From positions 31,407,234-31,471,233 of the forward strand of contig CM038471.1 of assembly GCA_021464415.1 (NCBI GenBank): a stretch of DNA of 64,000 nucleotides, in the 5' to 3' direction. Below the pieces are notes generated by a model, which did not search any database, was not told the origin of the DNA, and was given only the letters and a program-made list of their open reading frames with translations. Both the position numbers and the translations under genes were made by a program. Below, piece by piece: positions 4,068-61,989 of this stretch (the first letter of the stretch is position 1; each line of letters starts with the position of its first letter). The stretch is from Lonicera japonica. Taxonomy: Eukaryota > Streptophyta > Magnoliopsida > Dipsacales > Caprifoliaceae.

Positions 4068-4216
4068 TCGTTCCTTTAGCAACGAATTTTCGTTGCTGAA
4101 AGCATATTTCAGTGATGAAAATTTGTAGTTAAAGACGTTAAATATATCGTTCTTTTAGTAACGAATTTTCGCCACTGAAAGATGCTTTCAATGACAAAAA
4201 TTTATAGTTAAAGATG
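4068..4216 (+). repeat. 73-bp tandem duplication with a palindromic core
   Basis: Two adjacent copies share TCGTTC(C/T)TTTAG(C/T)AACGAATTTTCG and later AAA(A)TTTGTAGTTAAAGA. The first contains the palindrome AGCAACGAATTTTCGTTGCT. No coding potential. Confidence 0.55.
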
Positions 4217-5267
4217 CGGTTCATATATGCATGGACTGTCCTCACTAGATCTTTTACGATATATATATATATTATGGCCCCTTATGAGTTTCTGAAGATT
4301 CCCACTAAATAGGATGAAAATGGTGACACTCTCAAGGAGCTTTAATCAGTCCATATTTGAAATTTAATAAAATTAAGAAACCCTCTAAGGTTTAGCTACT
4401 ACCCTTCTTACAATCAATAGTAGACTAAAAAAATATCTCTATTGCAGTGGGATTTGATAAAAGATTGAGAAAAAAAAAAGAAGAAAAAACATCATTAATT
4501 ATAAAATCTTAAAACTATCAGCACCACCCAACTTGTAAAATTTACAACAAGCTTGCTTACCAATTTTTGAGAAAATCCCACCTTTTCCTCAGCAGTTGGT
4601 TAGATTTTTATATATGGTAATTTAAATTCACTTAAAAAGAAAAGGTTTTGATAAACTAATTAATAGAGGGTTTGAGTCAATAATATTGCAAACGCTGAAG
4701 GATATAGCTTAGTTGTGTAGTTGGAGATAAAAGGGAGTAGAATAAAAAGGATTTGAAGAAGAAGTTGAAATCAGTAAATATGTAGGGGGTTTTGAAGAAG
4801 AATTGGGATAAAAGAAGAATAAGAAGAAGTGAGAGTTGAAGAGAATTTAGAGAGTTGGGAAAACAGGGCTCGGTATGGATTAATTTCTTGGCTAATTAGA
4901 ATGTTTTTATAATGGGAATGGAATTGTGAGGGAGAAGGAAATTTGTTGCACTTGCACGCTTATTGTATTGACATATGCGTTTGACGAATCGAATAAGAAG
5001 GTTGGATAGAATATGGAATTTGTTGTAAATGCACTCGTTTATCAGTGTATTTATAGGTGTATTTGACAACTCGGATAAAAATGTTGGATATGATAAGAAA
5101 TTTGTGGCAAATAAACCCATCTATCATTATATTTAAAGGTGCGTTTGACGAATTAGATAAAAATATTAAATATGATTATTTAATAACATCCCGATTGGAT
5201 AAAATAATCTAACCTAGGTACGTGGGTTTGTTTATTCCCTTGAACTTTTGAGGGTAAATAATACGCC
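4217..5267. other. Intergenic, no gene seen
   Basis: AT-rich sequence with purine-rich stretches near 4470 and 4740-4860. On the minus strand 4880-4740 is CT-rich, as plant 5' UTRs often are, but I could not attach it to a coding exon. Around 4970-5160 the phrase GTGCGTTTGACGAAT(T/C) recurs about every 70-100 bp as a degenerate repeat. Confidence 0.4.
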
Positions 5268-16859: not shown

Positions 16860-18623
16860 AACTCCGCCAGTGTTACTTCAATGCTGCCGGTCCCAAGCCC
16901 GGATAAAGGAGGAGGGTTGTGTTAGGTAGTCGACAGTCAACGTAAAACTACGTCGAATCTTTATGACATGGACAAACGATATAATAGTGTTAATGCTAGG
17001 TCGTTGCCCAGAAGCAACGTGCTGTATCGCTCGAGTGCAGTGACAAATGAGCAAGGGCTGCTGCATCGCCGCCTGGATGTAGTGAAAAATAAGCGAGGGT
17101 TCCCGCATATTTGTGAACAGGTGCGGGTAAAGAAGCTAGTTCATGAGAGGAGGATTCGTTTTGGAACTTGGAATATAGGCACACTTACAGGAAAATCTAT
17201 GGAAATAGTTGACACAATAGGTGTTAAAGGCATTGGTTGGCTCACAAGGTTTTTCAACGAGATATTGAGATCAAAGAAGATGCCGGAAGAATGGAGGAGA
17301 AGCACCCTAATCCCGATTTATACGAATAAGGGGGATATACAAAATTGCGCCAATTACAGGGGGATTAAACTCATGAGCCATACTATGAAGTTATGGGAAA
17401 GGGTGATTGAGCGGAAACTAAGAAAGGAAACCAGCATTTTAGATAATCAATTTGGTTTTATGCCCGGGAGGTCGACCATGGAAGCAATTTACTTGTTGCG
17501 ACGTTTGATGGAGCAATATCGGAGGGATCAAAAGGACCTACACATGGTTTTCATTGACTCGGAGAAGGCATACGATAGGGTACCAAGAGAGATTTTGTGG
17601 AAAGCTCTAGAGAAGAAAGGGGTTAAGATTGCCTATATTCGTGGTATCAAGGACATGTATAAGGGAGCTAAGACTAGTGTGAGAACACATAGTGGGTCCA
17701 CAAAAGATTTTCCTATAACTATAGGACTGCACCAAGGGTCAGCTTTGAGCCCTTATCTGTTTACCTTGGTCTTGGATGCACTCACGGAACACATTCAAGA
17801 GCCAGCACCGCGATGTATGCTATTTGCAGATGATATTATCCTAGTGGGTGAGTCCAGAGAAGAGCTAAATGGGAAGGTGGAAACTTGGAGACAAACTTTA
17901 GAAGCGCATGACTTTCGTTTAAGCAGAAGTAAGACAGAATATATGGAATGCAAGTTCAGTAAAAAGCGGAGCACTCCTAACTTAGAGGTAAAAGTTGGGG
18001 ACATTGGCATACCACAAGTCACTCGGTTTAAGTATCTTGGATCCATTATACAAGAAGATAGGGAGATAGAGGGGGATGTAAACCACCGGATTCAAGCAGG
18101 GTGGTTGAAATGGAGGAAAGCTTCGGGTGTGTTATGTGATAAAAAGGTACCACTCAAGTTAAAAGGAAAATTCTATCGTACCGCGGTTAGACCAGCGATG
18201 TTGTATGGGACTGAGTGTTGGGCGGTCAAAAGCCAACACGAGAATAAACTAAATGTAGCTGAGATGAGAATGTTGAGATGGATGAGTGGCAATAATAGGA
18301 AAGATAGGATCAGGAATGATACCATCAGAGAGGGAGTTGGGGTGGCACCTATTACAGAAAAAATGGTTGAATCTCGACTTAGATGGTTTGGGCATGTATG
18401 GAGGAGACCGGTGGATGCCGTGGTTAGGAGAGTTGATCATATAGAGGGAAGCTTAGTTGTTAGAGGTAGAGGAAGATCGAGAAAAACTATAGGTGAAACT
18501 ATTAAGAAGGATTTAGAGGCAAATGGTTTCACTATAGATATGATTCATGACAGGCCACTATGGCGTCGTTTGATCCATGTAGCCGACCCCAACTAGTGGG
18601 ATAAAGGCTTGTTGTTGTTGTTG
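16860..18623 (+). mobile_element. RTE-clade non-LTR retrotransposon, endonuclease-deleted
   Basis: Bounded by a perfect 20-bp target duplication, TAGAGTCCTAGCAATTTTAT, at 16840-16859 and 18624-18643. It starts with the GC-rich leader (GGTCCCAAGCCCGGATAAAG) and ends in a (TTG)n tail typical of plant RTE elements. Both ends are present, so the 1.76-kb size reflects internal loss rather than 5' truncation. It lies about 400 bp upstream of the minus-strand gene at 13.4-16.4 kb. Confidence 0.9.
16968..18596 (+). CDS. RTE-type reverse transcriptase ORF with in-frame endonuclease deletion
   Basis: A single 542-codon frame. Residues about 1-60 are the N-terminal region; residues about 62-74 ([13 protein letters not shown]) are the first strand of the apurinic-type endonuclease, which then jumps within about 20 residues to the start of reverse transcriptase ([11 protein letters not shown]). 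RT motifs are in order: [29 protein letters not shown], motif [15 protein letters not shown], motif [13 protein letters not shown], and motif C LFADD. The C-terminal domain carries [26 protein letters not shown] and the terminal HVADPN typical of the plant family. Active-site aspartates remain. The missing endonuclease (roughly 400 residues in full elements) should prevent autonomous target cleavage, yet the frame is open throughout. Ser replaces the usual Leu in motif A. Confidence 0.9.
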
Positions 18624-22849: not shown

Positions 22850-24791
22850 TGATAAACGCATAATTTTGTAGTCGCTAACGCTCTTTTGATTGTTATTATC
22901 GTGTTTGTCTTAGCCTAGTTTAATTAAATTAACCCACTTTTGTGCACACACTCAAAATATCAAGAATTGCTTTAACATGGCTCAAAGTAGCCTTTTCTAG
23001 TGTCTTGATTGTGCCCATAGGTTTTGGAAGCAAGTTGGGGAGCTTTGGGAAGTGTACAAGAGAGATAGAAGCCAAAAGAGAAGAAAAAAAGTCTCCCGAA
23101 GTGTCCTCTGATCGATCAGAGGAGCCTCTGATTGATCAGAGGCCACCTTTTAATGCAAAACATGCCCTCTGATCGATCAGAGGGTGCTCTGATCGATCAG
23201 AGCCCACCTTTTGAGCCAAAATCTCCCCTATGATCGATCAGAGGATCCTCTGATCGATCAGAGACCTCCCAGAATGCACAGCACAGCCCCCAAAAGCAGC
23301 TTTTCTCCCCTTTTGATGCATTGAAACTCACTAAAAATTGCTGGACTTTCTACTTTTGTTCTAGGCTCAGGTGTTTATCCTTGGGTCCCTTAGAAAGTGT
23401 GATAGAATAGCCATTTTTGGCATTGTTTTGCCTCTTTATTTAATTATTTTCTTTGTCCTCATTTGGGGTTATGTAATTTCTAGATCTAGATTTTAGTTAT
23501 TTAAGCACTATTTTCCTGCACTTTGGAAATGATCCATCACTTGTAAGAAATCTAGAGAGAGAAGCTCTTGAGAGAAATGGAAATCCCTTTAATGGTTTTT
23601 GTTCATACAACTATCATGGAGTAGTTTCATTGCTAAGGCTAGAAGATGAAGTTTGCATTGCATTAATTATGTAAGTTTGTTTCTCATTCCATTGTTAGTG
23701 TTGTTAAATACTTCTTGAATCCTTCATCTTCTCCATTCAATCAACCATCCATAAGCTAGTAAGATAATCCTCATAAGGTGATTTGACTTTGTATGCCTTG
23801 TATACATAGATCTCAAGCATTAATGAGGAGATGATGCACTTGTGTATTTCTTATTAGCCTATGTCCATTCCTTCTATGATTGAGATACTTTACATTGCCA
23901 AGCATGTTTAGTCTTTGAATATTCATGGAAATACCATAAATTTGAGATTCCAATCCTTGAATGCTTTAATGATATGTTGAGTGCTTTCTACACTTTATGT
24001 GATTTTGAGACTCAATATTTTCTTAGTTAGAGTGTTGCCAAGGAGGATCTCTTAAGTTTATGCCATAATCAACTACACTAATCACCTTAAGGATTCAATT
24101 TATATTTATCAAATGTGTCTAAATCGGATGATTTAATCTCCACCTAGACCTCCCAATCTTAGACAAATGAAATGTTATGATTTATTGTGCTAAACTTTTT
24201 AGTTGGCCATTTTCATAATCAAGTCAATTGCCTAGGGGAAACTAACAATGAATTCTCAATGCCTAGTTTAATTTTATGCCTTTTCTTTTGGTGTATCTCA
24301 AGTTTGCATCTTGGTTGGACATTATATGGGAATGGGTTGCTCTTGCTTCACACCCTTTGTTACAAGATAAAAATGAGAGATACATTTGTGTTGAGTTTTA
24401 CTTACACCCTTTCTTTATATAGCATTTATATGGGAATGGGTTGCTCTTGCTTCACACCCTCTTGCTTAGAAAAGTGTAAGTTACTCAACACTTAGGAATT
24501 GCATTGAGAATTTTGAATGAGATTTATTTTACATAACATTGCGAAGCAAATGAATTCTATAACGCCTTAGCCTTTTCTTATCAATTGATACATCACTTTA
24601 ATTTTTATTGCAAGACTTAAAATCAACAACTAAAATCAACCAATAAAATTCTCTTGAACAAAGCCTTGGACTCGTAATCACCATATTGTCTTTCCGACTA
24701 TCCTTGTGGTTCGACACTTGGACTTACCAAGTATTATAACTTGACGACCTACACTTGGGTTCCTAAGCGCGGAAGTATTTCGGGCGCGTCA
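22850..24791 (+). repeat. 5' LTR of the gypsy element
   Basis: Begins TGATAAACGCATAATTTTG and ends GGGCGCGTCA, 1,942 bp. Contains six palindromic GATC boxes at 23105-23264 and two copies of a phrase TATGGGAATGGGTTGCTCTT about 100 bp apart (about 24327 and 24429). Small frames inside it (22942-23172, 24187-24495) are LTR sequence, not host genes. Confidence 0.95.
23105..23264. repeat. Cluster of six 16-20-bp palindromes in the 5' LTR
   Basis: Boxes of the form CCTCTGATCGATCAGAGG occur as three closely spaced pairs, at about 23105, 23125, 23165, 23187, 23227 and 23247. Four are perfect; one has GATT for GATC and one has TATG for TCTG. The same cluster is in the 3' LTR. Confidence 0.9.
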
Positions 24792-24797
24792 AGTTTT

Positions 24798-24815
24798 TGG
24801 CGCCGTTGCCGGGGA
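24798..24815 (+). promoter_or_regulatory. Primer binding site, tRNA-Asp type
   Basis: TGGCGCCGTTGCCGGGGA, 6 bp after the 5' LTR, is the exact complement of the 3' end of plant tRNA-Asp(GUC) including CCA. This primer is known for Athila-lineage elements. Confidence 0.92.
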
Positions 24816-24956
24816 TACGGCGAAAGACGGATTACGGGTTTTATAAAAAAATCCGCTTTGTAAGTATTTCTTCTCCCTTTGTGAATAAGTTTTTCTTGCT
24901 TATTATTTTCTTCTTTTATAGGTGGCAATTTTCTTTAAGATCACCTTCCCGGGCTT

Positions 24957-26369
24957 ATGCTCGGGGACTTGTACATTGATCTTCGAATAAGTCCACCAAG
25001 AGGCCAACCACCTCCAAGGCATCCTTCTCCCTCACCCACTCCATCCGAGATGGATAACGAAGACATTGAGTCAAATACCGGAGAGAACAATGATCACAAT
25101 CGTCCGGTCCGCACAATGCGAGATTACCTTCAACCTCCTCGAGGCACTTCAAACTCTTGCATTGTCATTCCCGCGGGACAAGCCGGAACATTTAATCTCA
25201 AACCGGGCATGTTGCAACATATACCATCATTTCATGGTATGGATTCCGAAAACCCTTACTTGCATTTAAAAGATTTTGAGGAAGTTTGCTCTACTTTTAG
25301 AGATGCTAACACAAATGAGGAAGTAATGAGGTTAAAACTTTTTCCATTCTCTTTAAAGGATAAAGGCAAAATATGGCTCAATTCTCTACGTCCCAATTCC
25401 ATTCGAACTTGGCAAGAATTGCAAACCGAATTTTTAAAGAAATTCTTTCCCGTTCATCGAACCAATGCTTTGAGAAGGCAAATTTCAAATTTTTCTCCTA
25501 AAGAAAATGAAAGTTTTTACAAGTGTTGGGAAAGATACAAAGAACTTTTGAATTCTTGCCCCCATCATGGACATGAGACATGGAGTATTGTGAGCTATTT
25601 TTACGAATCACTCACTCCCGCCATGCGCACATTTGTGGAAACGATGTGTAATGGAAATTTTTTGAGCAAAAGTCCGGAGGAAGCTTTGTTGTACTTTGAT
25701 GAAATAGCCGAAGGTGCCCAAAATTGGAACACCTACACGGATGAGGTTAAGGGTAAAGTTTCCGAGAGAGGGGGTTTGTACCAATTGTCAAAAGGTGATG
25801 ACATTGAGTTAAAATTTATGCAATTGTCAAAGAAGGTCGAAACCATGGAGTCTAGTAAAATGAGAGAAGGTAGTGTAGGTACTAATACCGTTTGTGTCAT
25901 TTGTGAGAAGGTGGGACATTCCACGGAGGAGTGTCACACAATTCCGGCCTTCAAAGAGGTCCTTCAAAGTCCCTCACAAGTCAATGCTATGAACTCATAC
26001 TCTAGGCCACACAATGACCCATTTTCTCAAAGGTACAATGAAGAGTGGAGAAATCATCCTAACTTTAGTTGGGGGGGAAACCAAAATGCTCATGCAAATT
26101 CAAATTCCTACCAACAAAGACCACCTCCACCCCAAAACAACTCTTTTGGTCAAACTAACCCAAACCCAAATTCAAATTTGGAGTCTCTTTTGCGGCAATT
26201 TATAGATAAGACCAATAGAGAGGTTAGTGATTTGAAAACCCAAATGTCCAAACTCACCACCGCATTGTCCATTCAAGAAAAAGGAAAATTTCCATCTCAA
26301 CCCTTAGCTAACCCAAGAGGCCAAGCTTTAGTGATCAATGAGGGTGAGTCGAGTAGGAATGTCGAATAA
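24957..26369 (+). CDS. gag: Gypsy gag polyprotein
   Basis: A 470-codon frame forming the nucleocapsid/capsid part of the element. A proline-rich N-terminus is followed by an acidic stretch, the IPAGQAGTFNLKPGMLQ motif typical of Athila/Tat gags, and a Retrotrans_gag domain at about residues 95-250 (KIWLNSLRPNSIRTWQEL, FLKKFFPVHRT, NESFYKCWERYKELLNSCPH). A CCHC knuckle, CVICEKVGHSTEEC, lies at about residues 313-326, then an Asn/Gln/Pro-rich linker and a short coiled coil. The frame ends at TAA 26367-26369, and protease continues in the same frame. The true start may be the later ATG at 25050 in the context GAGATGGAT. Confidence 0.92.
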   Translation: MLGDLYIDLRISPPRGQPPPRHPSPSPTPSEMDNEDIESNTGENNDHNRPVRTMRDYLQPPRGTSNSCIVIPAGQAGTFNLKPGMLQHIPSFHGMDSENPYLHLKDFEEVCSTFRDANTNEEVMRLKLFPFSLKDKGKIWLNSLRPNSIRTWQELQTEFLKKFFPVHRTNALRRQISNFSPKENESFYKCWERYKELLNSCPHHGHETWSIVSYFYESLTPAMRTFVETMCNGNFLSKSPEEALLYFDEIAEGAQNWNTYTDEVKGKVSERGGLYQLSKGDDIELKFMQLSKKVETMESSKMREGSVGTNTVCVICEKVGHSTEECHTIPAFKEVLQSPSQVNAMNSYSRPHNDPFSQRYNEEWRNHPNFSWGGNQNAHANSNSYQQRPPPPQNNSFGQTNPNPNSNLESLLRQFIDKTNREVSDLKTQMSKLTTALSIQEKGKFPSQPLANPRGQALVINEGESSRNVE

Positions 26370-27812
26370 TTGAAATCCATCACCGTCCTTAGGAGTGGGA
26401 AAGAGATTGACAAAACTATAGTTCCTAAGGCCAAAAAGCCGGTGGACATAGCCAAGTCAAGTCAAGTTGAGGAGATCACCCTAGAAGAGAGAATGGGGGA
26501 AGAAGAGAGAGTTGGAAAAGAGGATTTGGAGAAAATTCGAAATAGCATCAAAGTCCCTTTTCCCGAAAGGTTAAATCAACCTCCTAAGGAAAATCACAAC
26601 ACCGGAATTCTTGATGTGTTTAGGCAAGTCAAGATCAACATTCCTTTGCTTAATGCGGTCAAGCAAATACCTTCATATGCTAAATTTCTCAAGGATTTGT
26701 GTACCACCAAAAGAAGGTTGAATGTTAAGAAAAAGGCGTTTATGACGGAACAAGTGAGCTCAATCATGCAAGGCACTCACATTCCAAAATTTAAAGATCC
26801 CGGTTGCCCAACAATTTCATGTTTAATTGGCAATTGTCGTATAAAAAATGCCTTACTTGATTTGGGAGCTAGTGTCAATGTACTTCCTTTTTCGGTGTAC
26901 AAACAATTGGGGTTACGAGAGTTGAAACCCACCAAAGTGACGATTCAATTAGCGGATCGATCCGTTAAGATACCAAGAGGGATAGTAGAGGATGTTTTAG
27001 TGCAAATTGATAAATTCTACTTTCCCGTTGATTTCATTGTTCTTGATATGCAACCGGTAGCAAATCCCGCTAATGAAATTCCCGTCATTTTAGGAAGACC
27101 ATTTCTTGCCACATCTAATGCTATCATTAATTGCAAGAATGGAATTGTTAAATTGACTTTTGGAAACATGACTCTTGAGCTAAATGTGTTCTCTTTAAGC
27201 AAACAACAAAATGATTTTGATGAAGAAAGTGAACATGTGAACATGATAGAGTCATTATTCCAAGATCATTTCATTGATACTTACGATTCGAATTCAATGG
27301 AAGACAATCTAACAACTTCCAATGAATTCGATGAGTGTTTGAATGTATTTTATTTGCTTGATGACAAAGCTAAAGATCCAAAGAAGCAAAAAGAAAGCAC
27401 ATCCGATCCAACGCCAAAGCTTGAGGGACAAATGGAGCTCAAGCCAATGCCAAGCAACCGGAAGTTGCAACTTGAGGAGTTGGAGGAATTGAGGAGAGAC
27501 GCGTACCAACATTCAAAACTAAGCAAGGAAAGGGCGAAAAAATTTCATGATAAATCGATTTTAAGAAAAGATTTCAAACTTGGTCAAAAAGTCCTTGTTT
27601 ATGATACGCGTCTCCACCTTTTTCTCGAAAAATTAAAGTCTCGTTGGACCGGCCCTTATATTGTCAAGCATGTATTTCCATTTGGGGCCATGACGGTGGT
27701 TGATCCAAAAACGAGTTTCGAATTCAAGGTTAACGGGCAAAGATTGAAATTGTTTTTGGAAATTCCAACGCTTGAGGAGTCCACCCCTCTAAGCGACCCG
27801 ACCTACGCCTAA
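26370..27812 (+). CDS. Gypsy protease fused in frame to integrase C-terminus
   Basis: Follows gag in the same frame after one TAA; no good ATG lies at the boundary (the next codon is TTG), so expression would need stop suppression or the element is simply mutated. About residues 145-270 are a retropepsin of the Athila/Tat type with active-site DLGASVNVLP and the later VILGRPFLATSNAIINC. About residue 370 reaches the first residues before reverse transcriptase (MELKPMPSNRKL) and jumps directly into the integrase C-terminus (ELEELRRDAYQHSK, FHDKSILRKDFKLGQKVL, LKSRWTGPYIVKHVFPFGA). RT, RNase H and the integrase HHCC and DDE parts are absent, and the deletion keeps the frame open to the natural terminus DPTYA. 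Confidence 0.92.
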   Translation: MKSITVLRSGKEIDKTIVPKAKKPVDIAKSSQVEEITLEERMGEEERVGKEDLEKIRNSIKVPFPERLNQPPKENHNTGILDVFRQVKINIPLLNAVKQIPSYAKFLKDLCTTKRRLNVKKKAFMTEQVSSIMQGTHIPKFKDPGCPTISCLIGNCRIKNALLDLGASVNVLPFSVYKQLGLRELKPTKVTIQLADRSVKIPRGIVEDVLVQIDKFYFPVDFIVLDMQPVANPANEIPVILGRPFLATSNAIINCKNGIVKLTFGNMTLELNVFSLSKQQNDFDEESEHVNMIESLFQDHFIDTYDSNSMEDNLTTSNEFDECLNVFYLLDDKAKDPKKQKESTSDPTPKLEGQMELKPMPSNRKLQLEELEELRRDAYQHSKLSKERAKKFHDKSILRKDFKLGQKVLVYDTRLHLFLEKLKSRWTGPYIVKHVFPFGAMTVVDPKTSFEFKVNGQRLKLFLEIPTLEESTPLSDPTYA

Positions 27813-29489
27813 TAAGCGTAGGTCATGTTTGTATATAATTTTTGTTTATTTTCTGGAGTTTTAGGAGCATCGTCACACTTCGGGAAAGTTCAGGGACTAA
27901 AATGCAAAAACAGCAAACTTGGAGGTACTAGAGTGAATGGACCAAAAGCCAAAAAATCAAAGTTTCAAAAAAATTTTGAGTGTTCTGCCGTGCCTCTGAT
28001 CGATCAGAGGTGATGGCTGATCGATCAGAGGGGATTTTCTCCTAAAAAAAAAAAAAAAAAAAAAAATTAAAAAAACTTTGGTCCAAACAGCTCCTTTCTC
28101 CTCCTAACTTTGAAACTCCATTCTTATTTTTATTTATTTAATTTTTTTTATTTTGCTTTATTTTCTTTTTGGGTTGGTGGATTATCTAAACATAACTATT
28201 TGAGATAGTTTGAGCTTGAATTTTGCATGTTATGTTTGACTAATGCTAACCCGTTATTTTTAGATTTTTGTATATATAGTAGCTTTGAAATTGATCCTAG
28301 CTTCTTTTTGGAGAAATTGGAAAGCAATTTTCCAAGAATTCACCCATTTCCGTCTTCAAAAGCATTGAGGACAATGCCAACTTTAAGTTGGGGGGTGAGC
28401 ACTTTCAAATCTCAAATTCTCAAGCATGCTTTCTTCCATGTTAATTTTCTCCATGCTAGGATCGATTTCACCATTTTATCGAAGTTTGAAAAATGATGAT
28501 CAATTTTTTTTAGAATTGTCCATGGATTGATGGTTTTTTTGGCATGAAATTCTTGATTTGGATAGGAAGTTGAGTGATAATCTCTATGGCATTGCTTCAT
28601 CTAGATTCTTGAGCCTTGTAGTTTCCTATGAATATGCATAATGTTGTGGCTTGATTTAGTCTTTGGTATCACATAGAGTGATTTTTATCTTGTGTAGAGA
28701 GAAATAATGTTCAAATGCAATAAAAGCTCTTTCGAAAAGATCCTCTTTAGAGGGGACACGTGCATGGCACTTACAAAAAATTTAAAAACTTGGATGACTT
28801 TTAAACTTAATATTGACTTTAAGCTTCACTTGACTAAATTCATAAGTCATTTTGTCTAATATTAAGGATAGGCAAAGGTTACCATATGGAAAAAGGGTGA
28901 ATAGCTTCCTTTGTGTTCTTAAAAAAAAAAAAAGAAAAAAGAAAGAAGAAGAAGCTTTGAATGCAAAATCACAAAGTGAGACCGCTGCCCTCCATAGAGA
29001 TGCAAACCACCTTGAGCTAATTTAGCAAAAAGTCCAAGTAAAAGATAAAGAAAAGTGCTTGAAATTGACAAAGTTCTTGAGCTTTTGTTTTTGAAAGATT
29101 TCTCTCTTCCACTATTGATGAATAGAACTATTTGTGATTAAGAATGATTGTGTCAAAGATCCATATGCATAGTGTGTTCATATGGGAATGTGGAGCTAGT
29201 TTCTAAAGGAGATTGTAAGCAATGGAGATCGTCATTCAAATGCCAACATTCCGGAAATTGTAATAGTAATGCCAAACACTTGAATCAATTCATGGAAATG
29301 CTTCAATTCTACTACTTAGAGTTCAAACTTCGGATGTTTGTGGGTATCATCACTGTAAACCCTCACGAGACACAACTCGTCTTCTAGGGGAACTTAGGAG
29401 TTCAAAGGCTTAATGCATGTGCTAAATGCATTTTCGGATATTATACATAGCTATTTTTATTTGGCTTGCTAAGGGACTAGCAAGAGTTT
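27813..29489 (+). other. Gypsy 3' internal non-coding region
   Basis: No env-like frame survives. Contains two more GATC palindromes (27993-28031), a poly(A) run at about 28047-28067, and the phrase GAGGACAATGCCAACTTTAA followed by GTTGGGGGGTGAG, a purine tract typical of the 3' part of Athila/Tat elements. The frames at 28227-28496 and 29148-29387 look like chance. Confidence 0.75.
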
Positions 29490-29502
29490 AGTTGGGGGGT
29501 GT
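29490..29502 (+). promoter_or_regulatory. Polypurine tract of the gypsy element
   Basis: GTTGGGGGGTGT-like purine-rich sequence abuts the 3' LTR and would prime plus-strand synthesis. Confidence 0.8.
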
Positions 29503-31444
29503 TGATAAACGCATAATTTTGTAGTCGCTAACGCTCTTTTGATTGTTATTATCGTGTTTGTCCTAGCCTAGTTTAATTAAATTAACCCACTTTTGTGCAC
29601 ACACTCAAAATATCAAGAATTGCTTTAACATGGCTCAAAGTAGCCTTTTCTAGTGTCTTGATTGTGCCCATAGGTTTTGGAAGCAAGTTGGGGAGCTTTG
29701 GGAAGTGTACAAGAGAGATAGAAGCCAAAAGAGAAGAAAAAAAGTCTCCCGAAGTGTTCTCTGATCGATCAGAGGAGCCTCTGATTGATCAGAGGCCACC
29801 TTTTAATGCAAAACATGCCCTCTGATCGTTCAGAGGGTGCTCTGATCGATCAGAGCCCACCTTTTGAGCCAAAATCTCCCCTCTGATCGATCAGAGGATC
29901 CTCTGATCGATCAGAGACCTCCCAGAATGCACAGCACAGCCCCCAAAAGCAGCTTTTCTCCCCTTTTGATGCATTGAAACTCACTAAAAATTGCTGGACT
30001 TTCTACTTTTGTTCTAGGCTCAGGTGTTTATCCTTGGGTCCCTTAGAAAGTGTGATAGAATAGCCATTTTTGGCATTGTTTTGCCTCTTTATTTAATTAT
30101 TTTCTTTGTCCTCATTTGGGGTTATGTAATTTCTAGATCTAGATTTTAGTTATTTAAGCACTATTTTCCTGCACTTTGGAAATGATCCATCACTTGTAAG
30201 AAATCTAGAGAGAGAAGCTCTTGAGAGAAATGAAAATCCCTTTAATGGTTTTTGTTCATACAACTATCATGGAGTAGTTTCATTGCTAAGGCTAGAAGAT
30301 GAAGTTTGCATTGCATTAATTATGTAAGTTTGTTTCTCATTCCATTGTTAGTGTTGTTAAATACTTCTTGAATCCTTCATCTTCTCCATCCAATCAACCA
30401 TCCATAAGCTAGTAAGATAATCCTCATAAGGTGATTTGACTTTGTATGCCTTGTATACATAGATCTCAAGCATTAATGAGGAGATGATGCACTTGTGTAT
30501 TTCTTATTAGCCTATGTCCATTCCTTCTATGATTGAGATACTTTACATTGCCAAGCATGTTTAGTCTTTGAATATTCATGGAAATACCATAAATTTGAGA
30601 TTCCAATCCTTGAATGCTTTAATGATATGTTGAGTGCTTTCTACACTTTATGTGATTTTGAGACTCAATATTTTCTTAGTTAGAGTGTTGCCAAGGAGGA
30701 TCTCTTAAGTTTATGCCATAATCAACTACACTAATCACCTTAAGGATTCAATTTGTATTTATCAAATGTGTCTAAATCGGATGATTTAATCTCCACCTAG
30801 ACCTCCCAATCTTAGACAAATGAAATGTTATGATTTATTGTGCTAAACTTTTTAGTTGGCCATTTTCATAATCAAGTCAATTGCCTAGGGGAAACTAACA
30901 ATGAATTCTCAATGTCTAGTTTAATTTTATGCCTTTTCTTTTGGTGTATCTCAAGTTTGCATCTTGGTTGGACATTATATGGGAATGGGTTGCTCTTGCT
31001 TCACACCCTTTGTTACAAGATAAAAATGAGAGATACATTTGTGTTGAGTTTTACTTACACCCTTTCGTTATATAGCATTTATATGGGAATGGGTTGCTCT
31101 TGCTTCACACCCTCTTGCTTAGAAAAGTGTAAGTTACTCAACACTTAGGAATTGCATTGAGAATTTTGAATGAGATTTATTTTACATAACATTGCGAAGC
31201 AAATGAATTCTATAACGCCTTAGCCTTTTCTTATCAATTGATACATCACTTTAATTTTTATTGCAAGACTTAAAATCAACAACTAAAATCAACCAATAAA
31301 ATTCTCTTGAACAAAGCCTTGGACTCGTAATCACCATATTGTCTTTCCGACTATCCTTGTGGTTCGACACTTGGACTTACCAAGTATTATAACTTGACGA
31401 CCTACACTTGGGTTCCTAAGCGCGGAAGTATTTCGGGCGCGTCA
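29503..31444 (+). repeat. 3' LTR of the gypsy element
   Basis: 1,942 bp, same ends as the 5' LTR, about nine substitutions counted by eye (for example in the palindrome cluster at 29758-29917, where one box became GATCGTTC). The ORF-like stretches seen in the 5' LTR recur here. Target duplication ATTTG follows at 31445. Confidence 0.95.
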
Positions 31445-31600
31445 ATTTGTAGAATAATTGCAAAATGAAAATGTAAACCCTCCACCACTCTTATAATATT
31501 TAACATGCATTCAAAGTATATATACCTTCATAAACCCAAAAACATAATAAAAGGTGGGATAAGCCTATTCAAAACAAATTTAATTAAATGATGTGCTAAG
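31445..31600 (+). repeat. Right half of the split copy of the 13.1-kb gene flank
   Basis: TGTAAACCCTCCACCACTCT, AACATGCATT and AAAAACATAATAAAAGG align with 13150-13240 and with 32490-32580, so the gypsy target was a third copy of the gene's 3' flank. Confidence 0.75.
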
Positions 31601-54462: not shown

Positions 54463-54851
54463 TTTAATCAAAACAGTGCACTTTCATCCCGAGAATTATT
54501 TTATATAAACTAGAATTTGTGGCACATCTTCTATACATGTAAATATCATATATTTTGATACATTTAAGAAGCAAGCAATTGCGTATGGTGGGTGATTAAG
54601 TTACGTGCTTTTAATGGAATTACAAATTGAATTCTTGTTTCTAAGTTGATTTCGTATTTTGAATAAACTAGAAATTAGGTAGAAGGTCTTACTATACATT
54701 GATTTTTTACCAAAAATCCAATGAATAATAATTTTTTTGAATGAAGGGCCTATTTTTAATTGGTAATTAGTTTAAGAGGCCTATTTTGTTTTATATTTTA
54801 AATGAAGGTATTTGAATAAATTTAAATATCATTTAATTAATAAATCGGACA

Positions 54852-54948
54852 ATTGGAACATTCGGACTTGTCTAAGTGTACGAATAAATCGGACAATTAG
54901 CTAACTAAATTAAGAATAAATACACCTATCAAAACATGTGGTGTTACA
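54852..54948 (-). repeat. 3' LTR start, truncated
   Basis: Minus strand TGTAACACCACATG... then AGGTGTATTTATTCTTAATT through GTCCGAATGTTCCAAT matches 59484-59570 of the plus-oriented LTR, then homology ends. Confidence 0.75.
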
Positions 54949-54966
54949 ATCTTCCCCCCTTAAAAA
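54949..54966 (-). promoter_or_regulatory. Polypurine tract (minus strand)
   Basis: Minus-strand TAAGGGGGGAAGAT abuts the LTR start and follows TTCGAGGACGAAATTTTTT, the usual end of plant chromovirus-type polyproteins. Confidence 0.75.
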
Positions 54967-54989
54967 ATTTCGTCCTCGAAATTTTCATG

Positions 54990-57100
54990 GTATTCCTCTA
55001 AGTAAATAACTTGAGACAATTATCATAAATCTCGGTCTCTAATCTTTATAGCTCTTTTGGTAACATGCCAAGTGCCACCACACCCATCCCTGCCTCACCT
55101 CACCCATGTCCTCACACTGGACATCTAAAAGGGTCTGTTGGACTGTTGGCAAATTTTAATTGGTGTACTTAGCCATGCACTAATCAATCCTTATTGGCAC
55201 TTAGCCAGTAAGGCCAACTCAAATATCACGTAGCCAATAAATAAGCAACAACAATAAAGATACAAGAACAAGAACAACACTGAGTACTCTAGAACTCAAT
55301 ACTAGTAATAATGCCCCCTAATTTGTTGATATTCACCAAAAGGTTTTCGCCGTATACCCAACCTTCAAATCCTTGACGGGTCTAAAATTGTCGTCAATTC
55401 ATGTTTGATTTACATACCAAAAGTGTTTACACACGGGATTTACATTATCTATCCATTGGCACCTAACATACCAAAGCCATCTCCCTCCATAGTGCATATT
55501 TGGAAAAATTACATGAACACAATTATTTCACAACGTGTGAGAAACTCATAAAACCCAAAAATTAACGTCCTACGATGACTCAGAGGACTTTCTCAAATTT
55601 AACCAAGATATACGTAACGGATGTCAAATTCAGACTTCTAAGAAACAATTCTTTCGATTCCTCTAGCTAAGGATTTACATAGAATTTAACTTGTCAGCAA
55701 GATAGGTAAATTCATAAGTTGTTAAACACCCAGAAATGAACGATATCGTATTTTCATTACAAGGATTACCACACAAGAAAACAAGATAGAAGAAAACTCA
55801 GGTAGAGATATCCCAAGTTAAAATTTTAGAACCGAATGAACCATGAAGGGTTTTAGATTATTTCTACATTCCCATTCATATTTTTAATATGCTCAAAAAG
55901 ATATAATATCCCTATCTCATATCATGCAAGGAATCTTTATGACGAGGGATACTATAAAAATAAAGAATAATTGAGGTTCATTCCATAATAATAAGCTTGA
56001 TTCAACTTCATTGGCTCTAATGGGTAAACTATAAATAATCCACAATTGTAACTTGTAAACATCTGTACAAGATCTCATTCCAAATAGAAGTCTTATAGCA
56101 ATTGAAGAAGAAATCGTATACCCCAACATTCTCATAAAGAATTTGAGATTCCCTCAATTCAAACCACTACGCTTATCACATACTCATAACACACAAATTT
56201 TATAGGGATAAACTTAGGTTACTCAAATGTAAATGAGTATAAAGAATCATAATCCCAAATGTATAGAAACCATAAGTATACACCCATTAGATCATAATCT
56301 ATTCCTCACCTTTTCACATCTCATAAATCTCATGACCCAACGATATTCACATCCCTAAGTATAAATCGAACAATTTTTAAATGTTTACGTCACCAGAAAT
56401 CCTATTCCGGATCATATCATTGATCACTTGAACCAAAAATATTACTCCATAAAGAAGGAAAATCGTAATAATTTTATACCACAATACAAGATGACTTTTG
56501 GTTACTATGAAATTCCTTACCTTTAGTTAAGTAGCCAATTCAATTCGATAGTCCTTTTACAACACCAAAATTTCGTACAAAGTTGTCCTACAAGATCATT
56601 TATCGGATCAAGAATTTCAAGTATTTTATACCTCATCGTTTAAAACATCTTATTTTCCTATATTCAGAAAGTCATAAACATATGGACAAATAAAGTATAA
56701 AGGTCATCTTTTGAAGATAAAGACTTTATATCCACAAAAAGTCCCATAACCCATAAACTTAAATCCAAAACAATCAAGATACAAAAGTGTATATACTATA
56801 CAATTTTTATCTAAGAAATTTCCAAAACGGCACATTAAAATAGTTTCCACAATTGACCATACTTGATCCAAATTACCATATAACAATTTGATTCAAAAAT
56901 TATCACACATATATAAATACATATATATATATACATTTTTTTTCCTCTCTTTGCACCCTTTTTTCTTTCGGCGAAAGTTATTCGCTGTTGGGTCCCCCTG
57001 TCGGATCTCCCTTCCCTTTTTTTTTAGACAAATTTTTCGTCTTTTTCGAAATCGATATTCGTGCCCTTTTCTCTTATCCCTCTTCATCTTCCTCAAAACA
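54990..57100. other. Element interior upstream of the LBD gene, no recognised coding
   Basis: AT-rich. No gag, protease or pol motif was found on either strand; small frames at 55917-56135 and 56704-56886 (minus) are unsupported. A (TA)n stretch at about 56917-56935 and a CT-rich leader follow, which may serve the LBD gene as TATA and 5' UTR. Confidence 0.45.
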
Positions 57101-57177
57101 CAATCTATCTTTTTCTAACACCATTCATTTCTTCCAACGCCATTTTTACAGTTTCTCTCACAAAATAAACTGAAATA

Positions 57178-58008
57178 ATGTCGAACACTCACTGCTTTGC
57201 AGGTCCTCCATGTGTGGCTTACGCTTATAGCCACAAGAGATGTCCTCTATCTTGTGAATACGCCAAATGTTTTCCAAATGTGATTGATCGTCAGGATTAT
57301 CACACAATCTTCACTATTTTTGGGGTGAGGAACGTTGCATCATTTTTGCAAGATGTCCCCGAAGATCGGCGTCTTGAGACTCTCAATTCATATCTCCTTG
57401 AAGCTACGGCAAGAATAGAGAATCCCATTAGAGGTTGTACTACTCTCCTTGCTTCTCTTGAACAGAAGGTGGACGAGTTACAGGCACGGGTGACGGCATT
57501 AGAGGCTCGGTTAGAAAGGGGATCTTCATGCGTTAACCCGTTATGCTCCTTTGCTCCTCCTGGAGGTTCCTCGAGTTTCCCTTTTTCGGCAGAAAATAAC
57601 ATGCTTGCTATTATTCCGACTGCCATGAATCTTCCAGAACCTGCTCCCGGAAGTTTTTTAAGGCTCTTTATGTCGGCAGAAGAGATTGCATTTGAGATCC
57701 CTCCGCCTACTGTGGATCTTATAGAAAATGGGGCTTTTCTAACTGAAGTGAATTTGCCGTCATTTCCGAATCCATCCTATGACCAGGCTACCTTGGACTC
57801 CGTTTACCAGGCTGCCTCGGACGGTCTTTTATCAAAATCTTCGCTAGATAATTTTGTTGCGGATTTTGCCGAAACAACGGGCCCTGACTGGACAGCTTTA
57901 GGGGATATTCGCCATGATTTTTCTGATTATTCTTCTTCTGATTTAAGTACTATTTTGAATTTTGGTGCTGATGATCTTCAGATTCTTCGGCCTTTTTTGA
58001 GTGACTAG
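57178..58008 (+). CDS. LOB-domain (LBD) transcription factor, intronless, atypical zinc motif
   Basis: 276 codons. LBD proteins are plant-specific nuclear DNA-binding factors that regulate organ boundaries, lateral roots and other development. The LOB domain covers residues about 8-110: the C block reads PPCVAYAYSHKRCPLSCEY, where the CX2CX6CX3C motif has Tyr for its second Cys; the GAS block includes FTIFGVRNVASFLQDVPEDR and LLEATARIENPIRGC; and a leucine-zipper-like coiled coil follows (LLASLEQKVDELQARVTALE). The C-terminus is acidic (FSDYSSSDLSTILNFGADDL), as in activation domains. ATG is in context AAATAATGTCG after a CT-rich leader and a TATA-like run near 56920. Most LBD genes have an intron in this domain; none is seen here. 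It lies inside an LTR element, on the opposite strand. Family certain, function in the plant unknown. Confidence 0.88.
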   Translation: MSNTHCFAGPPCVAYAYSHKRCPLSCEYAKCFPNVIDRQDYHTIFTIFGVRNVASFLQDVPEDRRLETLNSYLLEATARIENPIRGCTTLLASLEQKVDELQARVTALEARLERGSSCVNPLCSFAPPGGSSSFPFSAENNMLAIIPTAMNLPEPAPGSFLRLFMSAEEIAFEIPPPTVDLIENGAFLTEVNLPSFPNPSYDQATLDSVYQAASDGLLSKSSLDNFVADFAETTGPDWTALGDIRHDFSDYSSSDLSTILNFGADDLQILRPFLSD

Positions 58009-59006
58009 ATAATGCGCACCTCTAGTGAGGGCTTTGTACAAACATTCATGAGATGTTCTACTTGTGATTGTTTAAAGCATAACCCCATTTTTTTATTTTT
58101 TTTCTATACCCCTTTCATTTCCATCTACCCTTTTCATTTCTTACTATCTGCAATGAAACTCACTTATAACAGCACACATATATATATATATGCAACAAAT
58201 ATTCTTCAATACACGTTAATATCATTTTCAAGAAAACTTTAACGACTCCTGCACACCCTTCATACTTCCACTGTCAGTCTAGAAACTATCCGATTTGATG
58301 TCACTTAATAGTGGCGGGAATACAATGAGATCTCAAAGTAATAGAGCTAAATTCGGTCATTCTAAATATGTGCTTTTACTAAAATTCATGAGATTGACAT
58401 ACAACCTTAAGGTAAGTCGCAAAAGAAAATGAAATTCGCATCAGTGGTATTTAAGTCATCGAGTACAAAGTAGGAAATTCAATGCAAGAATTCAAGACAA
58501 GGATGCCAGAAAGATCGTTGTAGGTTTCAACTAGTTTTATTTCTCCACCAATTAGTGAGGTCACAATGATCCCAATACCACGACTATCCAAGATCTCAAA
58601 AACAAAACCAATAAATCAAACAATATGAGATTCAGAATTAAACTCAAATAATATTCCGAGTGATTACACAAAAGCCTTAAAATAAGAAAAATTAATCCGC
58701 AATCTTCATACTTATTGAAATTTAAAATTTAGCTCTAAATACAAGGAGTATCTCAAAAATATGGTCAAGGCAAAACTTAAATACCAGCAGATAGTGTGGG
58801 TCATTGAGTTCAACTCTAGTTAGCTACAGTAGACAATTGCTTTATAAGATAGTCATCCGTTGGCCAGCAGTTGACTATAATATAACTCGATTGTCACATG
58901 TGCTTACGAAAATTAAAAACTCAACTTCCCTCACCTTTACGCAGAACGAAAATGCATGATCTTAATCTACCCAATATCCCACGGCAAAGGGAATTTGAAC
59001 CAATGA
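58009..59006. other. Element interior downstream of the LBD gene
   Basis: No coding motif recognised. Contains (AT)n at about 58180-58195. The two overlapping frames near 58898-59121 cover the primer site and LTR end and are not genes. Confidence 0.5.
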
Positions 59007-59018
59007 CCTCTGATACCA
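59007..59018 (-). promoter_or_regulatory. Primer binding site, initiator tRNA-Met type (minus strand)
   Basis: Minus-strand TTGGTATCAGAGG begins a few bases inside the LTR end at 59023. Confidence 0.85.
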
Positions 59019-59022
59019 ACTT

Positions 59023-59483
59023 TGTAACGCCCCGAATCCCACACCCCGGGGTAGCGGGGACGCTACGGTATCCACCTATAGGGCGGATATAAATTTGGAT
59101 AATGGATGCACATAAGACCAACTAAAGCTCCCTATAAATAAATCTAAAAATTTTACACGATACAAACTGTTGACCAAATCACAAAAACATTATCAAACTC
59201 ATTAAATATAAAAGTCATATATACATAAAACCATAAGTTCTCCACAAAATATTATTAATAAAACCCAAAAGAAACAAACAAAAGTCTTCTACATGAAGAC
59301 TACACAAGGTTTAATTGGTATTAATGATCTACTCTATCGCATGCAACCTCATCCTTTCCCCTTTTCCTTATCATCTACTACACGATCAGATTGTATACCT
59401 GTGGAGGGAAAACGTGAGCTAAAAAGCCCAATGGAAACACGAGTGCAAAATGAAACTAATAATTGAACTATTAAAATTATAAA
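59023..59483 (-). repeat. 5' LTR end of the minus element, truncated at an inversion junction
   Basis: Reverse complement of 61290-61768, about 98% identical by eye (roughly nine differences in 460 bp). Terminal sequence TGTAACGCCCCGAATCCC. At about 59484 it switches abruptly to the same LTR in the opposite orientation. Confidence 0.85.
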
Positions 59484-61768
59484 CAAGTCTAATAAATAAT
59501 AGGTGTATTTATTCTTAATTTAGTTAGCTAATTGTCCGATTTATTCGTACACTTAGACAAGTCCGAATGTTCCAATATGTCACTTTGGTGTTATGGATAA
59601 AAATATTTTAGACAATTGTGCAGTGTTACCATTTCGATCATATCTTTTCGCTCAGAACTCTGATTTTGGCGTTCTTTATATCGTTAGAAAGAAGACTCGA
59701 AGAGCTAAAACTTCTTCCTACTGAAAATTTTCTAGTTCGGACATTTAGTAGCCTAAAAATAGCTCCTAAGATACTGGTCAGGCACAGTGACGTAAAAACA
59801 GGGGATTTTGGTAATTTTCTTTTTTTTCCACTTATACTCTTCTCTTCTACACACTTCTCATTTTCTCCTTCTCCAAACCCACGAAAAAACAGAGCTTTCT
59901 CTCTATTTCCCTCATCCTAAAACCTTGATTCAGCACAAATTAAACTACTAAATCCATTCTACTACTAGAAATCACAAGCTAAGAACATCATCAACAAGAT
60001 TTCATCATCCTCCTCCTTTGAATCATTCAATTCATCCAAGGATCCTTCAAACTCTTCATACACAACTACTTCAATTCTTCATCAATCCTCTATTTGAGGT
60101 GGGAACATGAGTAAACTTCTCTTCTCTACTCTAATTTACATGTTTTATACTCTAGAATGTTAATTTTGAGTTCCATCCATATGAATCTTAGATTTGCTAT
60201 TTTAGAGAAGAGATGATTTTCTAAATTTCTATTAATTGAACTATGAAGTTGTGATGATGGTATTTGATATATGAATTTGCAAGTTTGATTGTTATATGGG
60301 TTTACTAAAATGTTTAAGTAAGCAAAAATGGATTTTTGCTACTGTTTTGGTATATTTCGAGCTGGTTATTGATGAGTGATGTTAGATATTAAGTATGTAT
60401 TTCAAAATATGGTTCAATATCTAGCATATGGCATTGGAATCACTCAAAAGGATGAAAAATGAATTTTTGGTGAATTTTGCAAGTTTGGTGGATGATAACG
60501 ATTTCTACGCGGAAATATTAAAATTTTTGTATTATATCTCATATTATTCTCCAACGTTTGGATTAATTATTTTGACTAGTGAACTAGATCACTTTTATGA
60601 TGGAATTTGAGAATCTAAGATGCTTATTAAGTTATAATTCTTGGAGGAATATATTGTAGTTGTTTTATTTGTAAAAATAAATAATAATTGAATTGGTTAT
60701 TGTGGATTTCTCAAGTTTTTGGCATGGTGAGTCCATTTCCTAGCTTGGTTTTCTCGATCGGTGGCCGTAGGTGGTCGGTTTGAGAATCCCCATTTCTGTA
60801 AAACTTTGCCCGTAAATTATTGGTAAAATTGAATAAGTTTACTTTAAAAAAAAATATTTATGGAATTTACTTTAGTGTTGGTACTTAAACTTGGTTTAAA
60901 GACACATTTAAGGTAAATTGTGTATTGTATGGATATTGTACTTGTGCTTGTATTTGTGGTTGGTTTGTAAGTTGGGACGAAGAGCCCCTCGGATGAAAAG
61001 ACCAGAAACCGTGCACAGAAGCAAGTAAGAGGTGCCACCGCCACGGGGTGAGAAGCCCCCGGAATGGGGACCACCACATTAGCATTTATGAAGTAACCAT
61101 TCATTATGTATGTGTTACTAGTTTATCCGAAATTTATATTCGGTTATTTATCCTCTACACAATAAAATTAAATGTGTCGATTTTATAATTTATATATCCC
61201 TTAACAAAGTGCCAACATTGTTTATGATTCTTATATGAGTTTAATGAGGCATAATTATGTCCTTTGTTGAATTCCATTATACTTTGGAGCCTTATTTATT
61301 ATACTTGTTTATAATTTTAATAGTTCAATTATTAGTTTCATTTTGCACTCGTGTTTCCATTGGGCTTTTTAGCTCACGTTTTTCCTCCACAGGTATACAA
61401 TCTGATCGTGTTGTAGATGATAAGGAAAAGGGGAAAGGATGAGGTTGCATGCGATAGAGTAGATCATTAATACCAACTAAACCTTGTGTAGTTTTCATGT
61501 AGAAGACTTTGGTTTGTTTCTTTTGGGGTTTATTAATAATATTTTGTGGAGAACTTATGGTTTTATGTATATATGACTTTTATATTTAATGAGTTTGATA
61601 ATGTTTTTGTGATTTGGTCAACAGTTTGTATCGTGTAAAATTTTTAGATTTATTTATAGGGAACTTTAGTTGGTCTTATGTGCGTCCATTATCCAAATTT
61701 ATATCCGCCCTATAGGTGGATACCGTAGCGTCCCCGCTACCCCGGGGTGTGGGATTCGGGGCGTTACA
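59484..61768 (+). repeat. Nearly full LTR in plus orientation, about 2.3 kb
   Basis: Begins about 20 bp inside the LTR start seen at 54948 (AGGTGTATTTATTC) and ends CGGGGCGTTACA. A CT-rich promoter-like stretch lies at 59820-59870, and a GC-rich patch (GGTGCCACCGCCACGGGGTG) at about 61031. No primer site follows its end, so it is a 3' or solo LTR or a rearrangement product. The frames at 59618-59920, 60428-60610, 60844-61104 and 61257-61442 are LTR sequence. Confidence 0.75.
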
Positions 61769-61989
61769 ATACGTGCATGACACTTATGGAATATTTGAAG
61801 GACACAACGTGGCAGATTTTTAAAGTTATTTAAAATGTAAAAGGTAGATATTTGCATTGATTAATTATTATATTTTCTATTTAGAATATGAAGGGTCAAA
61901 ATTAAATCATATCAATGAGAAGGAATATGGACCTTTTTCGATTAGATTTTATATTTTTTGGTTGTTATTCCGGTAGTATTAAATATATT

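Follow-up and report, generated by a model that had tools for sequence, protein, structure and literature searches.

In the plant LTR retrotransposons Grande, RIRE2 and Retand, the frame termed aORF-3R is antisense to the element, lies between pol and the 3' LTR and is present in many copies (as treated in passages of PMC7264820). A DNA-binding or nuclear role has been suggested for it in the portions consulted of PMC7264820 and, for TRP28 of Retand, PMC11963269. The same portions of this 2020 review state that no genes resembling the antisense accessory genes are found outside transposable elements (PMC7264820). Plant LTR elements also transduce genes, as described for Bs1 and in surveys of sorghum and rice (sections of PMC7264820 and PMC13317346). 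Transduced genes are usually in the sense orientation, and antisense frames arising in this way occur in one or few copies (same sections of PMC7264820).

We analyzed a stretch of 64,000 nucleotides of the Lonicera japonica genome, here called the window, in which a preliminary description had noted a 276-codon LOB-domain (LBD) gene antisense inside an LTR element. LARDs and other non-autonomous LTR elements have LTRs, a primer site, a polypurine tract (PPT) and target duplications and are without gag-pol, while LBD proteins are defined by a four-cysteine zinc motif, CX2CX6CX3C. The observation was confirmed and proved to be larger than first stated. We propose, with a probability of roughly 0.7, that the window holds a relic copy of an LBD gene turned antisense accessory gene of honeysuckle LTR retrotransposons and kept as a useful, probably regulatory, component.

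The LBD frame and the element around it

The plus-strand gene is uninterrupted, as first described, and its match to Pfam LOB (E 1.7e-19, 70.7 bits) is well above the curated cut-off of 24.2. In the predicted structure of the protein, residues ~11–110 were modelled with confidence and have the LOB fold, matching the LOB domain of wheat Ramosa2 (PDB 5ly0; TM 0.83 when scaled to target length; E 1.7e-4), which was also the profile match. The model has a long helix at 87–114, in the position of the coiled coil of LBD proteins. Three of the four zinc cysteines are present and the second is replaced by tyrosine (CVAY for CVAC); the window copy thus departs from the four-cysteine motif, which is complete in 25 of the 32 LBD copies compared. 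The lack of an intron had been read as a hint of capture from an mRNA on the argument that most LBD genes contain introns. This is no guide, since the LOB profile is unbroken to at least position 95 in 18 of 24 high-scoring LBD matches of this genome, and we rejected the missing intron as an argument for an mRNA origin.

Both minus-strand landmarks of the preliminary description, the LTR end with its primer site (which we take to be of the initiator-Met type) and the PPT with the LTR start, were borne out at the positions given in Table 1. No gag or pol was seen between them, because apart from a shadow frame within the LBD gene there is no further frame of at least 80 aa. The window copy therefore has the make-up of a non-autonomous LTR element, with primer site and PPT and without gag-pol. 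Its ends are not at 54852 and 59483 as first given; the left LTR is cut and the right LTR continues to 59499, where it abuts an inverted copy. The inverted LTR pairs in the window share 98.1% identity across 478 bp and 98.8% across 83 bp, and no primer site was seen behind the inverted copy (61769). The window copy is a relic, with truncated LTRs, an inverted LTR alongside and one zinc cysteine lost. In a related locus, L010, the PPT, LBD frame and primer site occur in the same order as in the window between two direct repeats of ~2.6 kb that are 96.3% identical, the left one extending past the stretch examined. This arrangement indicates that the window primer site and PPT belong together, and the idea that they come from two unrelated element fragments was rejected. 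At least two of the 36 places that match the leader also carry an LBD frame (C533 and C1:38.17 Mb).

Table 1. Positions of the features discussed, numbered from the first nucleotide of the window
Feature	Position	Strand	Basis or remarks
Young element, LBD-free counterpart of family B	22850..31448	+	99.5% identity between LTRs; frames for gag and protease
3' LTR remnant, ~100 bp	54848..54948	-	Self-comparison; L009 and L010 alignments
LTR start (TGTAACACC) and polypurine tract	54940..54961	-	Read in sequence
3' internal region, parts common to 22 LBD-free places (of 40 scored)	54962..56876	-	Genome matches
LBD cassette: 5' part rich in pyrimidines and variable in length, LBD frame, ~75–80 bp 3' sequence	56944..58088	+	Common 3' end; borders approximate
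LOB-domain (LBD) gene, 276 codons	57178..58008	+	No intron in frame; Pfam LOB match, 5ly0 fold match
5' internal leader	58316..59022	-	36 other places match, ending at 59020–59034, the LTR border
Primer binding site TGGTATCAGAGG	59007..59018	-	Adjoins LTR end at 59023
5' LTR remnant, 477 bp (last 477 bp of right LTR)	59023..59499	-	Self-comparison
Nearly full inverted LTR copy, same family	59499..61769	+	Ends GTTACA at 61769; 93.8% to the LTR of L009

Copies of the cassette and their LBD-free relatives

The window frame had 40 further matches at 86–92% at the nucleotide level (40 of 40 scored candidates). A LOB profile search of the L. japonica genome covered 150 scored places out of 1605 first-look candidates, and all 150 were above the cut-off. 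Twenty-four were high-scoring, canonical LBD genes (110–148 bits) and 126 were divergent (80–87 bits). Among the latter, 41 by hand count were 259-aa open frames without stops and five coincided by coordinates with copia elements, L047 being read without flanks. The subfamily has its own C-terminal motif, PDW...IL(N/D)F. Capture of a lone gene was rejected from these 40 nucleotide matches and 126 divergent places. Taken alone, the window copy, whose LTRs are truncated, might be mistaken for an ordinary host LBD gene amid LTR debris, but this reading is scarcely credible given the further copies, LTR pairs and target duplications around LBD frames, LBD-free relatives, and a LOB score far below those of the 24 high-scoring genes. 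In a protein search, 52 of 54 matches were 'hypothetical proteins' of Lonicera macranthoides, some of which may be element-borne, a warning for annotation. A search for relatives outside Lonicera gave only short contigs of 0.9–2.1 kb (P0053, P0060, P0061, P0065 and P0044), and P0044 is nearly identical to P0045 of L. macranthoides.

Clustering of flanks among 32 frames placed the ~1.1 kb LBD cassette in four LTR families, A, B, C and D. Flanks mostly do not align between families; C and D share further pieces and so may not be independent. A diverged version is present in a Ty1/copia element, L045, which retains gag (PF14223, E 2.6e-27) and a piece of pol, with the LBD frame after the Pol_BBD piece and before the PPT. 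The copia and window proteins are 50% identical and the frame is kept. The preliminary description had suggested that a developmental regulator of the host might exist here as a mobile copy. This is unsupported because 126 of the 150 LOB matches are at 80–87 rather than 110–148 bits and the gene occurs in families A–D and copia; the window copy being truncated, rearranged and without one zinc ligand also counts against it.

We scanned 13 loci with five primer motifs. Ten had an exact match at the expected border on the strand opposite the LBD frame, and none of the 13 had one on the LBD strand at a border. The frame is thus antisense to the element, as are the aORFs of Grande, RIRE2 and Retand. 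All nine family A and B elements in the count had target-site duplications (seven exact, two with one mismatch; L012 gave no call), which points to integrase-type insertion of these short elements. Their LTRs are 96.2–98.9% identical, the copia LTR ends are 99.4% identical over 362 bp, and direct repeats were also seen around L010, L011, L018, L024 and L026. With LTRs 96–99% identical, the insertions are recent. By eye, no gag-pol was recognized among frames of at least 120 aa inside the listed A and B elements.

Copies with and without the LBD frame were both found, and three families (B, C and copia) have LBD-free counterparts, which supports the earlier idea of an LBD gene as antisense cargo of a pol-less, LARD-like element. 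The LBD-free counterpart of family B in the window is an element that we take to be Athila-type. In all seven family B copies, ~25028–27774 of this element is absent and the antisense LBD cassette is in its place, with the left junction at 25017–25028 and the right at 27774. For family C, the 40 scored places comprised six LBD frames with C flanks, 22 stretches of C sequence without an LBD match, and 12 LBD matches of other families; 18 of the 22 stop at 56875–56876 and two have a further piece up to 56943. Of 25 scored copia places, seven have LBD and 18 match only 2970–5701 plus LTR, with one break common to the 18. Possible autonomous partners are the LBD-free B relative with gag and protease, and LBD-free copia relatives of the gag side only.

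Of 16 aligned cassette borders, 13 share the same 3' end (exceptions L036, L037 and L038). None of these 16 borders shows a poly(A) tract at the end of the cassette, so that an mRNA origin is unsupported and a poly(A)-marked retrocopy was rejected. Thus, in the earlier suggestion of a captured LBD, a gene inside an LTR element stands, but a single host transcript does not, given the large diverged subfamily and this lack of poly(A). A common 3' end and families whose flanks mostly do not align could also mean that the cassette is a mobile element in itself, inserted repeatedly into LTR elements. We consider this improbable: the cassette is antisense in 10 of the 13 loci scanned and never sense at the border, it replaces rather than interrupts family B sequence, junctions agree in all seven B copies, the 18 LBD-free copia places have one break, and terminal repeats were not seen by eye at the 16 borders. 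In the LBD tree, the family label needs three changes, which is the minimum for four labels, and deep branches are weak. L010 of family C falls beside B (89.6/94), but a tree with C held together is not rejected (p-AU 0.253), and for this reason we do not claim repeated exchange between families.

Selection on the LOB domain and decay of the frame

The proposed dN/dS comparison gave 0.29 (0.20–0.46) for the LOB domain between families and 0.18 (0.10–0.33) among six intact frames, where ranges are bootstrap limits. Shifted-frame controls gave 1.04 (0.61–1.70) and 0.78 (0.54–1.17), respectively. These ratios indicate purifying selection on the LOB domain. Constraint on the C-terminal part is weak (0.75; 0.51–1.15), and the LOB value for B–B pairs is 1.44. 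In the 32 frames, variants in at least three copies were 59 synonymous to 88 nonsynonymous and singletons 58 to 193. The three antisense frames opposite the LBD frame have on average 12–14 stops per copy; shadow frames of 121–158 codons were seen there.

A premature stop, indel or unaligned end occurs in 26 of the 32 frames, L034 having only a 15-base gap. A stop at codon 33 recurs in nine of the 32, across A, B and C, so either codon 33 decays frequently or broken copies moved. Such decay, a nearly unconstrained C-terminal part and recent insertions are what would be expected of a passive passenger, captured and amplified with the elements without benefit, whose open frames are merely young. 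We regard this as unlikely, although the least so of the alternatives, because the LOB ratios have bootstrap limits below 0.5 with controls near 1, the frame is kept down to 50% protein identity between copia and window, and families A–D as well as copia elements all have the cassette.

Proposed history and comparison with known systems

We favor an accessory gene useful to its carriers. Long ago, an LBD gene would have entered an LTR element in antisense orientation. The protein would have been useful to the element, so that elements retained the cassette of 5' region, frame and a short 3' stretch, which then spread to further LTR families. Its presence in these families is observed, and the route of transfer is our conjecture. 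In family B it occupies the place of the related element's gag and protease. In copia it sits at the place expected for the remainder of pol; pol is absent there in one copy, and replacement is presumed. LTRs, primer site and PPT remain in the short elements, which would need enzymes from relatives. A transcript of the LBD frame would probably arise within the cassette itself, in the direction opposite to that of the element RNA, and its product is likely to be a nuclear DNA-binding dimer. Because the protein core bears the mark of selection, it may serve the elements. The likeliest role would be regulatory, either raising LTR transcription or bringing about a cell state that favors transposition, and in antisense orientation the LBD polyadenylation signal would not be carried by the genomic RNA of the element. 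More tentatively, and at somewhat less than even odds, this could be a retrotransposon-owned LOB subfamily whose antisense cassette was exchanged between Gypsy and Copia elements in place of gag/pol and acts in trans on its carriers or the host state. If so, gene-poor elements would pay their way with a transcription factor and not with enzymes.

Antisense accessory ORFs in plant LTR elements are already known. The literature searched gave no example of a recognizable LOB domain in such ORFs, spanning superfamilies. Titles and abstract openings on LOB/LBD with retrotransposons did not name an LBD gene inside an LTR element, and the LOB passages of PMC12581244 are unrelated. Here, the antisense accessory gene belongs to a recognizable family of DNA-binding proteins whose fold has been solved, purifying selection acts on its LOB domain, and LBD-free sister elements provide natural controls. 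Together, these make direct tests possible of binding, LTR activation and passage between superfamilies.

As in the described portions of the Grande, RIRE2 and Retand systems, the honeysuckle frame is antisense to the element and in many copies, and a nuclear or DNA-binding role is suggested for it. Unlike aORF-3R as described there, it encodes a recognizable LOB-domain protein and is found in both Gypsy-type and Ty1/copia elements. It also differs in position, which is not between pol and the 3' LTR: the cassette replaces gag-protease in family B and the window element is pol-less; L045 comes nearest to the aORF-type position. The case resembles Bs1-type transduction, so far as the sections consulted describe it, in that a host-type gene is inside an LTR element, but differs in its antisense orientation, its many copies and its presence in several families. 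Like LARDs, the LBD elements have LTRs, primer site, PPT and target duplications (the latter in A and B); unlike them, they encode a conserved protein on their opposite strand, and the copia version retains gag and a pol piece. The protein itself is like LBD factors such as wheat Ramosa2 in its predicted LOB fold and long helix and in the cysteine motif of 25 of 32 copies, whereas its lower Pfam scores (80–87 versus 110–148 bits) and C-terminal motif set this diverged subfamily apart from canonical LBD proteins.

Copies of the LBD cassette and their insertions

A genome search with window positions 57000-58500 yielded 43 matches from the 40 candidates scored out of 1595 found on a first look. 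These are the window itself, 40 sequences at 86-92% identity, and two short pieces. The preliminary description proposed a single captured gene, but this is not borne out because the cassette is repeated. Only the window itself and C143:173370 extend beyond query position 1096 (window position 58095). A search with the LOB profile (150 scored of 1605 candidates) gave 24 matches at 110-148 bits, which we call canonical on score, and 126 at 80-87 bits; by hand count, a stop-free open frame of 259 aa is present in 41 of these 126. The comparison set consisted of 30 fetched regions, with two LBD frames in L016 and one in each of the other 29, making 32 frames with the window. Two nearly identical regions, L023 and L032, may represent a single locus that was assembled twice; both were kept in the counts.

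In the window, the LBD frame, primer site, and polypurine tract were confirmed where they had been described. LTR sequence is also present at the borders proposed for the element, but each LTR survives only in part: about 100 bp remain at one border and 477 bp at the other, where the remnant adjoins an inverted LTR copy. A simple reading is that this arrangement would have arisen through an inversion across both LTRs of one element, with the outer left part also lost. The nearest annotated proteins are 'hypothetical proteins' of Lonicera macranthoides (52 of 54 matches).

Members of families A and B are real insertions. Target duplications of 5 bp, chosen as the best match among no more than a few candidate ends, flank all nine elements tested (seven from A and two from B), seven exactly and two with one mismatch. 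The LTR identities of these elements are 96.2-98.9%; assuming 1.3e-8 substitutions per site per year, the insertions date to the order of a million years ago.

Features of the window, the LTR families, and related loci
Feature	Location or members	Description
542-codon frame	window 16968-18596	LINE-type reverse transcriptase by eye
Young LTR element	window 22850-31448	LTRs 1.95 kb, 99.5% identical; gag PF03732 (E 1.2e-18); aspartic protease
Polypurine tract and LTR start	window 54940-54961	minus strand
Cassette	about window 56944-58088	
LBD frame	window 57178-58008 (+)	276 codons
Primer site	window 59007-59018	minus strand
Inverted LTR copy	window 59499-61769	ends at 61769; abuts truncated 5' LTR; resembles product of inversion between one element's LTRs
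Two LBD copies	L016:4600-7141	opposite orientation, within 2.6 kb, each stopped at codon 33; arrangement nested or palindromic
L047	C6:30266850-30267800 (positions 1-951)	LBD copy with 234-aa frame
Family A	18 loci: 15 by both flanks; L014, L038 by 5' flank; L016 by 3' flank	LTR TGATGG...CATCA; primer TTGGCGCCGTCTGTGGGAAC or close variant
Family B	7 loci, by flank comparison	primer TGGCGCCGTTGCCGG
Family C	window; L010 (5' flank); L009 (3' flank)	primer TGGTATCAGAG behind TGTAAC- and TGTGAC-type LTRs (C and D)
Family D	L011, L013 (3' flank)	primer as for C
L036		stands alone in flank grouping

An antisense cassette in distinct LTR families

The LBD cassette lies antisense in families A-D, which were assigned by comparing the flanks of the loci, and a diverged version occurs in a copia family. 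Between most families the cassette alone can be aligned, comprising the frame with a variable stretch 5' of it and approximately 75-80 bp past the stop. Families C and D are the exception in that they have further pieces in common, such as window positions 58107-58283 at 82-85%, and L013 of family D shares sequence with C out to window position 56790. LTR ends and primer sites differ among the families. A scan of 13 loci for five primer motifs located an exact copy in the expected position, reading antisense to the LBD, in 10. L009, L018, and L020 had none, although the borders of L018 and L020 show variants that differ by one base. Outside the elements lie a same-strand motif in L018 and an additional antisense motif in L022. 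In L013, a Gypsy-type gag frame (PF03732, E 3.6e-11) also lies 2.9 kb away from the LBD, on the side opposite the primer site. Because mean dS between families is 0.11-0.22 and most flanks cannot be aligned, the cassette arrived after the families were distinct. The LBD tree requires three changes of family label, the minimum for four labels, and family A appears paraphyletic in it, with weak support for the deep branches.

LBD-free counterparts were seen for several families. All seven family B copies match the young element, which we take to be Athila-type, on either side of positions 25028-27774 and carry the LBD in place of that stretch, so that the cassette replaces gag-protease. The left junction is at 25028 in five copies and at 25025 and 25017 in the other two; the right junction is at 27774 in all seven. 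The young element may itself be non-autonomous, and beyond its gag and protease frames no frame of at least 170 aa was found. Its second frame ends, by eye, in an integrase-tail-like stretch. Of 40 places scored for family C, the LBD occurs together with C flanks at 6, C sequence is present with no LBD match at 22, and LBD matches in other families account for 12; 18 of the 22 end at window positions 56875-56876. Sequence matching the family C 5' leader occurs at 36 other places, where the match ends at the LTR border; an LBD is present at some of them.

The copia family is represented by L045, whose LBD frame of 256 codons runs antisense to a Pol_BBD piece and to a copia gag of 557 codons (PF14223, E 2.6e-27); neither integrase nor reverse transcriptase was recognised among the frames of L045. 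The LTR ends of L045 and the neighbouring stretch L046 are 99.4% identical over 362 bp. With L045 as query (10282 candidates), 7 of 25 scored places had the LBD form, and the other 18 matched only the gag side and LTR, every one breaking at L045 position 2970. It is probable that the cassette replaced pol here. In best rows, the first 371 bases of L047 are 84% identical to L045, alignments of about 540-590 bases show 83-84% identity to A and B copies, and the last hundred bases are 91-96% identical to A and B copies versus 75% to L045. Judged by these identities, L047 may be a mosaic with a copia-type N-terminal half and a family A/B-type C-terminal end. By eye, the L. macranthoides proteins P0035 and P0037 resemble the same mosaic.

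Purifying selection on the LOB domain

The LOB domain is under purifying selection. Its mean dN/dS between families A-D is 0.29 (Nei-Gojobori; codon bootstrap 0.20-0.46) and 0.18 (0.10-0.33) in the six intact frames. Shifting the same codons by one or two bases gave 1.04 (0.61-1.70) and 0.78 (0.54-1.17), and the region downstream of the domain gave 0.75 (0.51-1.15). Pairs within family B reached 1.44 in the LOB domain. Synonymous to nonsynonymous variants numbered 59:88 in at least three copies, 29:80 in doubletons, and 58:193 in singletons, a spectrum that fits selection working in active lineages and relaxing after insertion. Counting against selection, a stop, an indel, or an unaligned end is present in 26 of the 32 frames, and a stop at codon 33 occurs in 9 of the 32 across families A, B, and C (L009, both L016 copies, L019, L020, L024, L025, L031, and L038), so that either one codon decays repeatedly or broken copies move. 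That the LBD was simply amplified along with the elements, with no benefit to them, is made slightly more likely by this recurrent stop and by the overlap between C and D, but we consider it improbable. Our main reading, that the LBD is an antisense accessory gene useful to the LTR elements, is made slightly less likely by the same two observations, and we give it a probability of about 0.7.

A profile search of the PDB with the LBD protein returned only 5ly0, the LOB domain of Ramosa2 (E 5.7e-19). The structure model is confident at residues 11-110 or so (ten-residue means elsewhere are at most 61) and matches 5ly0 with a TM of 0.83 by target length. A PDW...IL(N/D)F motif at the C-terminal end recurs in P0053, which is 37% identical overall. 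P0053, P0060, P0061, and P0065, all relatives of the window protein, are LOB proteins or pieces of such proteins; identity is 37-47% for the first three. They perhaps mark the family outside Lonicera.

A probable antisense accessory gene and known systems

An LTR element probably captured the LBD originally, and the cassette would then have passed between families, with template switching as one candidate route. Relatives may mobilise the LBD elements, and the LBD could be transcribed from its own promoter and have a regulatory role for the element. Our literature search for LOB or LBD with retrotransposons found no report of an LBD case. Antisense aORFs are placed in Grande, RIRE2, and Retand by PMC7264820 and PMC11963269. 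The LBD differs from these in that those aORFs are described there as having no host-gene relatives.
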